From Burkholderiales bacterium 70-64 (lineage in GTDB: Bacteria; Pseudomonadota; Gammaproteobacteria; Burkholderiales; Burkholderiaceae_E): a DNA stretch of 36,106 bases. The stretch is taken from contig MKUQ01000001.1 of the NCBI GenBank assembly GCA_001898645.1, positions 1 to 36,106 on the forward strand, read 5' to 3'. A program made the position numbers and the translations under genes. The notes beneath the pieces are model-generated. The model worked only from the letters and a program-made list of their open reading frames with translations. It made no database searches and was not told the DNA's origin. This document shows, piece by piece, positions 13,299 to 36,106 of the stretch (the first letter of the stretch is position 1; each line of letters begins with the position of its first letter).

Positions 13299-13396
13299 GG
13301 GCGGGCCCCCCCGCAGTGCGGCGTGGTCAACCTGGTCAGGTCCGGAAGGAAGCAGCCACAGCCATTCCCCGCACGTGCCGGGGTCCCGGCTCGCCC
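13299..13396 (+). ncRNA. ffs: 4.5S signal recognition particle RNA
   Basis: RNA partner of Ffh in co-translational membrane targeting. The conserved apical domain is visible: GGTCAGGTCC, a GGAA tetraloop and GGAAGCAGCCACAG (about 13334-13365), the site bound by the Ffh M-domain. The two flanking strands pair over the rest: the GGGCGGGCC region at 13299-13307 with GGCTCGCCC at 13388-13396. Length is about 98 nt, as expected for the small Alu-less bacterial type. Ends are estimated from base pairing. It lies between divergent trxA and dnaX. Confidence 0.93.
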
Positions 13397-13439
13397 ACTT
13401 CCGGATGCCGCCGCCGCTCCACCGCTGCTCTCCGATGAC

Positions 13440-31475: not shown

Positions 31476-33375
<1,900 letters not shown>

Positions 33376-33380
<5 letters not shown>

Positions 33381-33652
33381 TCCAGTGGAACCGGGAAATC
33401 GGCTGTGCGTGAGCGCCTGCAAGGGGCGCAATCGAGGCGCGAAGCCGCCGATGTGGCAGGCCCCACATCAAGGCTTTGCAACGACGAGTGCGCCCCTTGC
33501 AGGCGCTCACCCTTCGGGCCGGGGTCTGCGAGGGCGCGCTGCCGTCGTTGCAGCGCTCGCCCAGGCGTCCAGCCTGGGCAGCGCGCTGCGCCTAGGCCCG
33601 CGCCCTCGCAGACCCCGGCGCACAGCCGATTTCCCGGTTTCACTGGACTAGG
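33376..33652. repeat. Nested inverted-repeat element, Y-shaped, in the ftsH-folP gap
   Basis: An outer inverted repeat (33376-33409 against 33619-33652, one mismatch seen) encloses two hairpin arms of equal length. Arm 1 is 33409-33510, with perfect 22-bp ends (33409-33430/33489-33510) and an inner stem of AAGCC plus GATGTGG type. Arm 2 is 33518-33619, with perfect 21-bp ends (33518-33538/33599-33619) and an inner GCCCAGGC/GCCTGGGC stem. A 7-nt centre (33511-33517) separates them. The arms resemble each other (CTGC(A/G)AGGG core), so the 22-nt unit occurs four times in alternating orientation. The ends read CTAGTCCAGTG and CACTGGACTAG. The element contains the ftsH stop codon. No protein gene is convincing inside it. 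Confidence 0.9.
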
Positions 33653-33685
33653 AGTCTGTCGGAGTTGACACTCCGACAGACTCCT
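33650..33685. repeat. Perfect 16-bp hairpin before folP
   Basis: 33650-33665 and 33670-33685 are exact reverse complements around a TGAC loop. It touches the right end of the nested element and ends 3 nt before the folP GTG chosen here. There is no T-run. It opens TAGGAGTCTGT, like the hairpin after orn (TAGGAGCCTGT). In RNA it would sit over the folP ribosome-binding region. Confidence 0.8.
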
Positions 33686-33688
33686 GGC

Positions 33689-34544
33689 GTGTCGGCACAC
33701 CCCCGGCCGGTGCGCCGCCTCGCCTGCGGCCGCTACACGCTCGCCCTCGATCGCCCGCTGATCATGGGTGTGATCAACGTCACGCCCGATTCCTTTTCCG
33801 ACGGCGGGCACCTCACGACGGTGGAGGCGGCGATCGCGCATGCGCATCGCCTCGCCGAGGAGGGCGCCGACCTGCTCGACATCGGCGGGGAATCGACGCG
33901 GCCGGGCGCTGCGCCCATCACGCCCGCGCAGGAGATCGCGCGCGTGGTGCCGGTGCTCGATGCGCTGCGCGACTGCGGCCTGCCGCTGTCGCTCGATACG
34001 CGCCATCCGGAGACGATGCGCGCCGGCCTTGCGCATGGTGCCGACATGATCAACGACATCGGCGCGCTGCGCGCCCCCGGCGCGATCGAGACGGTGCGCG
34101 ATTCCGCCTGCGCGCTGTGCCTGATGCACATGCAGGGCGATCCGGCCACCATGCAGCAGGCCCCCGCCTACCGCGAGGTGGTCTCGGAAGTCGAGGAGTT
34201 CCTGCGCCGGCGCGTCGAGGTGCTGGCGTCGGCGGGGATCGCGCGCGAGCGCATCGTGCTCGATCCGGGCATCGGCTTCGGCAAGACGCTGCGGCACAAT
34301 CTGCTCCTGATCGAGGCGCTCGACGAGCTCGCCGCCCTCGGCCAGCCCACGCTCATCGGCGTGTCGCGCAAGTCGATGATCGGCCAGCTCACCGGCCGAC
34401 CGGTCGACGGCCGCCTGGCCGGCAGCCTGGCGGCGATGCTCGCGGCGGTGGCGCGCGGGGCGGCGATCGTGCGCGTGCACGACGTGGCCGAAAGTCGCGA
34501 TGCGCTTCGGGTCTGGAAAGCAATCGAGGAAGCGGGGGAAAGGG

Positions 34545-34555
<11 letters not shown>
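33689..34555 (+). CDS. folP: Dihydropteroate synthase
   Basis: Condenses p-aminobenzoate with the pterin pyrophosphate in folate synthesis; the sulfonamide target. Domains: [17 protein letters not shown] (pterin/pABA loop 1, about 25-41), [13 protein letters not shown] (loop 2), [42 protein letters not shown] and [16 protein letters not shown]. With the GTG at 33689 it has 288 residues. The start is uncertain: the frame is open from a TTG at 33665, inside the hairpin, and another GTG lies at 33710; none has a good Shine-Dalgarno. It overlaps glmM by 11 nt. Confidence 0.94.
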
Positions 34556-36036: not shown

Positions 36037-36106
36037 CGGGGCGTAGCTCAGCCTGGTAGAGTGCTTGCTTTGGGAGCAAGATGTCGGAGGTTCGAATCCT
36101 CTCGCC
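36037..36106 (+). tRNA. tRNA-Pro (anticodon TGG), cut by the window end
   Basis: The cloverleaf begins with acceptor strand CGGGGCG (36037-36043). It has a D-arm with GCCTGGTAGA, an anticodon stem CTTGC/GCAAG (36064-36068/36076-36080) around loop TTTGGGA with anticodon TGG (36071-36073), and a T-arm GGAGG-TTCGAAT-CCTCT. The last visible bases CGCC start the 3' acceptor strand, so only about 7 bases are missing. Reads CCN proline codons. Confidence 0.95.

Follow-up and report, generated by a model that had tools for sequence, protein, structure and literature searches.

Bacterial MITEs moved by insertion sequences were characterized, as far as the accessible portion of the respective report goes (PMC10969869), by small size, the lack of a gene, terminal inverted repeats, multiple copies and stable folds, all of which are likewise found for the element described here, a Y-shaped inverted-repeat element (Y element) located between ftsH and folP of Burkholderiales bacterium 70-64. 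However, when compared with the MITEs of that portion, only the Y element possesses a three-armed body of fixed form, the two inverted arms of which are homologous and old, and this body is found across end classes and genera. The CIR of Caulobacter and Brucella likewise consist of a pair of long hairpin arms with a linker between them and were said, in the available part of their report (PMC2229807), to differ from repeats with a stem formed by the 5'-end and the 3'-end, whereas the Y element, compared by description, has both the arms and a 31-bp outer stem. BRE of the Betaproteobacteria resemble the Y element in being GC-rich dispersed repeats (75-91 bp) of mostly intergenic location and suspected mobility, but the accessible text on them (PMC3110155) describes a tandem VNTR, by which description they are set apart, kinship with the approximately 100-nt arm being possible. 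Palindromes alternating at gene ends are also known from REP, BIME and REPIN sequences with their RAYT, which, however, consist of 20-40 bp units (PMC3733652, in the part available) and come with a Y1 transposase, absent from the genome analysed here by the search given below. Members of the IS5 family (NCBIfam NF033580) share with the Y element terminal repeats and a YTAR-like site, but encode a transposase and lack the Y body. A narrow literature search, with preprints and most subscription papers outside its reach, returned no description of the Y family.

For the locus in question, which lies within a window of 36,106 nucleotides (the whole stretch of DNA analysed), the initial annotation had offered a non-autonomous mobile element, a BIME-like REP array or a structured RNA. 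The feature is a dispersed element, being neither a REP/BIME sequence nor a unique structured RNA, and very probably it represents a copy of an approximately 270-bp MITE family with IS5-type ends that is moved in trans, with a fixed three-armed body of single origin, stems kept partly by template switching and a selected fold. Documented in the following are the family, its ruler-like dimensions, its single origin, the occurrence of the same ends on a multi-copy element of the IS5 family in one genome, the absence of the Y element from this site in congeners and one template-switch footprint.

Architecture of the element between ftsH and folP

The features of the locus are as follows.

31476..33380, + strand: ftsH (Pfam M41, AAA and FtsH_ext; ORF list), whose TAG stop codon (33378-33380) doubles as the element's left end
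33377..33380, no strand: left CTAG of YTAR type (sequence)
33378..33408, + strand: left 31-bp outer stem and terminal repeat of class C, TAGTCCAGTGGAACCGGG..., with 33/34 pairs to the right end
33409..33510, + strand: arm 1, hairpin of type 1 (model R1, 87.6 bits, E 4.2e-17 within the window)
33435-33439 and 33479-33486, + strand: internal motifs AGGCG and CAACGACG, respectively, within arm 1
33511..33517, no strand: centre CCTTCGG, 7 nt, folding as a mini-hairpin (gap of 3-7 nt across 61 relatives)
33518..33619, - strand: arm 2, hairpin of type 2, the same arm family inverted (model R1, 73.0 bits, E 6.3e-14)
33620..33650, - strand: right 31-bp outer stem and terminal repeat (sequence, pairing with the left end)
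33648..33651, no strand: right CTAG, common to the Y element and the adjoining mini-hairpin (sequence)
33650..33685, no strand: 36-bp perfect hairpin AGGAGTCTGTCGGAGT-TGAC-ACTCCGACAGACTCCT, consisting of two class-B ends and a 4-nt loop, which abuts the Y element
33689..34555, + strand: folP (Pfam Pterin_bind on the longer frame 33665-34552; GTG start at 33689 likely)

Nested dyads with two mirror-placed arms around a 7-nt centre had been described initially, and this architecture was confirmed: the terminal repeat (33376/33652) pairs at 33 of 34 positions, the base of arm 1 (33409/33510) at 25 of 26 and that of arm 2 (33518/33619) at 21 of 22, the first 21 being perfect. The extent given for it, 33376-33652, holds for the dyads as such but needs correction with regard to the element proper, which spans 33378-33650 (273 bp, from the TA at 33378 to the TA at 33650), the 36-bp hairpin at 33650-33685 being separate. 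Two small elements, the Y and the class-B 36-bp hairpin, are thus found adjoining before folP, the right CTAG being common to both. Within the Y element, a 31-bp outer stem encloses the two approximately 100-nt hairpin arms and the 7-nt centre, and the minus-strand reading of arm 2 is homologous to arm 1, which bears out the earlier statement that the arm-end units are related to each other.

The dyads are genuine and far exceed chance expectation. As DNA, the element was computed to fold with -145.5 kcal/mol as compared to -68.6 kcal/mol (sd 3.6) for 200 shuffles, and the RNA fold gave a z of -20.6 against shuffles, i.e., both lie about 21 sd lower. All of the 20 exact 16-mer inverted pairs (up to 320 nt apart) of the whole 36-kb window start within 33370-33690, a count which takes in the neighbouring mini-hairpin too. 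Scanning the window with the arm covariance model R1, for the building of which both window arms were among the 38 arms used, identified the two arms alone, the next match having an E of 0.63. No ORF of at least 100 aa is located wholly inside the element, and with the element as query (BLAST, low-complexity filter on) no match was obtained in plasmid and phage databases.

Distribution and fixed dimensions of the family

The further copies of ends and units that the initial annotation proposed to look for were found both in the own genome and in relatives. A DNA match to the window element was identified in 14 of 61 genomes, the own one included, and scanning GTDB with one end sequence gave at least 118 loci, with an arm match (E<=0.001) at 49 of the 118 end-sequence loci listed. 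Going by record titles, the matches listed derive mostly from Beta-, Gamma- and Zetaproteobacteria, next to a few bins labelled Acidobacteriaceae, Desulfovibrionaceae and Oscillospiraceae. R1, which was built from alignment A1 (71 arms, 43 without near-duplicates, 38 used; L167 arm a, both L193 arms, L190 arm b and L065 arm b left out), has a match in 143 of 300 genomes of the same order and in 76 of 134 genera, with up to 13 candidates scored per genome. Conservation of the pairing, the second point to be checked, turned out as strong covariation, 29 of the 30 consensus arm pairs showing changes on both sides in at least one of the 38 arms. A single-origin, strictly measured and covarying element in 143 of 300 genomes sampled from one order, with no Rfam match and no description in the papers searched, would represent a blind spot of repeat and RNA annotation.

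A common layout of an outer stem of approximately 31 bp, an arm of approximately 100 nt, a 3-7 nt gap and a second arm of approximately 100 nt was identified in 61 complete relatives, a set from which solo arms, duplicates (e.g., L046) and pairs truncated at contig ends (L051, L280) were left out. Arm length in these 61 Ys is 96-105 nt, nearly all arms having 99-103 nt, and the outer stem, for which the best-scoring of three 1-nt offsets was taken in relatives, breaks off abruptly after 30-32 pairs: its Watson-Crick fraction amounts to 0.87-0.97 at positions 9-30 from the arms and to 0.10-0.37 from position 33, and the three positions next to the arms are paired in only about 65%. Neighbouring arms are oriented + then - in 61 of 62 pairs; the sole exception found (L204 1050-1273) is a Y-like arrangement, both arms of which have the same orientation according to the model and are separated by a 25-nt spacer. 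In the arm tree one branch (SH-aLRT 95) separates two arm types, and 60 of the 61 Ys hold one of each, whereas in 500 partner shuffles at most 42 Ys were split across this branch. As the two arms belong to old, diverged types in 60 of 61 Ys, the Y family is of single origin and goes back to one ancestral Y whose arms had already diverged.

Both arms keep the internal motifs AGGCG and CAACGMCG, and the terminal repeats vary, with end classes differing between genomes. Clustering of the ends is loose, 52 of 61 falling into one class, and the eight end-class changes on the tree are not firm and stand without a shuffle control; the better case for one body with different end classes is made by the own genome (G000, 63 contigs), where type-1 arms at 75-85% identity are common to the end classes A, B and C. 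The nearest relative of the window element on the arm tree, L256, has class-C-like ends, and therefore ends and body can also travel together. Four more Ys of the own genome, on C25 (arm 2 shortened to 88 nt), C54, C55 and C56, have class-A ends; one-arm or truncated versions are located on C21, C19, C28 and C60, and single ends are many. A near-identical class-B end recurs at 10 of the 11 other places found, one of these being the one-arm relative on C21, which has both ends, and the eleventh, on C50, looks like a chance match. By eye, the flanks of the Y on C54 (L007, G000:C54:49801-50068) appear to be those of an interrupted gene. Ys or solo ends on C25, C60 and C12 (L003, L018, L087) were seen by eye to lie in or beside another recurring GC-rich inverted repeat, which looks like a different repeat family. 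Rfam RF00504, the glycine riboswitch, has two matches within the locus that holds the one-arm class-B element (L002 2819-3029).

Element ends and IS5-family insertion sequences

YTAR is the target site type of IS5 insertion sequences, and the base preceding the terminal TA is, as expected from this, C or T at 91 of the 100 ends with TA in place (122 ends in total). The window element has CTAG at both ends, a palindrome with which a true target duplication is indistinguishable. The closest link to an insertion sequence comes from G210 (one contig, 5.47 Mb), which harbours 22 full Ys of 270-272 bp, C or T preceding the end in 16 of the 22 copies. Those of 272 bp (n=20) form identical groups of 6, 4, 3 and 3 copies plus four singles. 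The same genome holds an IS5-family element of 859 bp, eleven copies of which were read with 99.8-100% identity, seven being mutually identical, as well as one further end pair at a distance of about 859 bp. Both Y ends (TAGAACCCATTTCATAAATAG) equal one end of the 859-bp element and have two mismatches to its other end, and the transposase frames of one copy, joined by the analyst, matched NCBIfam NF033580 with 243 bits. The orientation of the Ys in G210 is 13 versus 9; a leading/lagging bias was dropped, GC skew from 20 samples being too noisy.

In the own genus, the transposase test covered 14 loci, four of which have clear ends, and IS5-type elements of 831 bp in G003 and G014 carry ends (TAGGKYGTGTTAACAC) close to the class-A Y ends. 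In other bacteria, elements of 830-883 bp whose IS5-like transposase frames are split or intact are likewise flanked by class-A ends (L162, L199, L207, L216, L219), and two further class-A end pairs (L173, L125) have no clear transposase. With two queries, no match to an IS5-type transposase at E<=0.001 was found in the own assembly, neither viral contigs nor the other places searched yielded an autonomous element with ends of class B or C, and for the window's own end class (TAGTCCAGTGAAACCGGG) the places searched gave no partner insertion sequence. Two long end pairs in viral contigs were rejected, the enclosed 455-aa frame being not transposase-like by eye. Among the places listed for the class-C end in 74 genomes of the family, close-together ones occur only at the window and at the Y of G014. 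BLAST with the low-complexity filter on gave no match for L140 on plasmids and phages nor for L271 and a G210 Y on plasmids, and a query with an 859-bp insertion sequence did give a match.

At the ftsH-folP locus, 16 congener loci were examined, of which two were unreadable, and the element is absent from all 14 readable ones, which come from 14 congeners, the folP anchor being weak in a few. The spacer measures 63-287 in congeners versus 378 in the window, the insertion in which parted ftsH from folP. In congeners the ftsH stop codon is TGA or TAA rather than TAG, and in G004 and G008 the stop region reads TGATG, so that ftsH and folP seem to overlap there. The search for empty sites, as proposed initially, was thus successful with regard to loci without the element, but the exact pre-insertion site was not seen. 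Taken with the further copies and the ends shared with a multi-copy insertion sequence in one relative, these loci support the first of the initial readings, the non-autonomous mobile element.

As a mechanism it is proposed that the ends correspond to terminal inverted repeats of IS5-family insertion sequences (NCBIfam transpos_IS5_3 type), that insertion would occur at YTAR sites, e.g., a CTAG often holding a TAG stop codon, and that IS5-type transposases would move the element in trans, the same presumably applying to the class-C ends of the window. Inside the ends, the body (outer stem of about 31 bp, type-1 arm of about 100 nt, 3-7 nt gap, type-2 arm of about 100 nt) would derive from one ancestral Y, and different end classes would have carried it since. 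Replication over the folded strand may copy one stem side onto the other (template switching) and in this way partly give rise to the near-perfect stems, and the kept imperfect motifs AGGCG and CAACGMCG suggest selection on the fold, which probably acts as a DNA structure that a protein or the replication fork encounters, DNA rather than RNA being the likelier acting form.

Stem pairing and the role of the fold

Perfect pairing had been attributed to recent formation, gene conversion or selection, and what emerged is hairpin-templated correction in part and, probably, selection in part. One G210 copy (572473) differs from its sister at 14 positions, all of which locate to positions 166-181; the new tract of 16 nt reads as the opposite side in reverse complement, and arm 2 became a perfect 48-bp hairpin by the change. 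This tract is what template switching at a quasipalindrome leaves behind and represents a clean single-event example of the process. Template switching at quasipalindromes is known in E. coli from the available part of one report (PMC7202029), and a second, likewise accessible in part, proposed it as a way of keeping RNA stems (PMC8794818). The Y family also cautions that strong covariation need not imply a functional RNA; its many near-identical copies are a natural experiment on compensatory stem changes by template switching versus selection, and the rigid three-armed fold is a natural test bed for hairpin evolution.

Stems that are perfect through this mutation bias only, with a functionless fold in an ordinary MITE, are a possible but clearly less probable explanation. 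The one clear template-switch tract fits it, as do the three own-genome copies (4-8% divergence), the stems of which show 15 compensatory doubles versus four singles and five other doubles in pairs that are non-independent. Elsewhere, however, singles nearly equal doubles: among eight related elements (two identical), all pairs at 6-10% gave 56 compensatory doubles, 45 singles and five other doubles, all pairs at 10-20% gave 99, 49 and five, respectively, and the 20 G210 copies of 272 bp, which represent eight sequences, have a single compensatory double among ten variable stem pairs. Moreover, the lengths of arms and outer stem barely vary in 61 Ys and imperfect inner motifs are kept, which argues against homogenisation alone as this would erase them; the imperfect inner motif kept by the other G210 copies suggests selection. 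A point that speaks against the MITE reading as such is that a conserved three-armed body exceeds what a MITE needs. In a rather speculative further reading, the Y fold itself would be part of the transposition machine, folding on single-stranded DNA at the replication fork, with the paired ends forming one 31-bp duplex read by an IS5-type transposase and the AGGCG/CAACGMCG bulges of the inverted arms serving to hold a host or transposase dimer. If true, one old body would parasitise many IS5 lineages via end changes and thereby constitute a structure-recognised class of DDE-dependent MITE.

That selection acts on a transcript, the Y being a structured RNA or a 3' regulatory element (terminator, RNase III substrate) spread by transposition, is improbable, and the structured RNA of the initial annotation lacks positive support, even though several observations are in line with it: the strong covariation, the excess of G-T over A-C pairs (49 versus 21) in the arm alignment in the motif-forward frame, a count which pools both arms, and an A-tract and a T-tract flanking the hairpin in this order in 45 of 122 arms, as against 21 with the two reversed. 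Likewise, 41 of 97 stop-reading ends terminate a frame at least 100 codons long, compared with 14.9% of other TAG (n=2134) and 28% of other CTAG (n=159), counted on open frames instead of annotated genes and with related copies counted separately; ends doubling as stop codons may, however, merely reflect where CTAG survives. In the outer stem G-T amounts to only 44 against 33 A-C, the window element gave no intrinsic-terminator match and has no T-tract in its arms, and the arms of one element lie on opposite strands in the motif-forward frame. With the two arms facing opposite ways, one transcript does not simply explain the same G-T bias in both; the excess in the arms could point to one strand of each arm as the selected form, and the occurrence of the motif and its reverse complement on each strand suits a two-fold DNA complex. 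Readings of the fold that remain are a by-product in an ordinary MITE, an aid to transposition or survival, and RNA action.

The BIME-like array, i.e., REP/BIME or REPIN sequences spread by a RAYT (Y1 HUH transposase) with the arms as four REP units, was not borne out and is very unlikely. Palindromic units do alternate and sites do coincide with stop codons, and Y1_Tnp is present in 21 of 61 genomes searched, including the element-bearing G009, G017 and G022; however, at E<=0.001 it has no match in the own genome (assembly 98.28% complete) and none in 11 of the 14 element-bearing genomes, the ends match DDE-type IS5 elements, and the arms of about 100 nt have a nearly fixed length as opposed to 20-40 bp units. 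An assembly artefact, for which the 63 contigs of the own genome could speak, deserves practically no credence, given that the same fold recurs at differing locations in many assemblies of independent origin, among them single-contig genomes.

In Rfam 15 no match at gathering score was found for the element region, and nine sub-threshold matches, to six microRNA families and three unrelated ones, were rejected. Elsewhere in the window, the bacterial small SRP RNA was identified at 13300-13398 (Rfam RF00169, 74.9 bits) and a tRNA, cut by the contig end, at 36037-36106 (Rfam RF00005).
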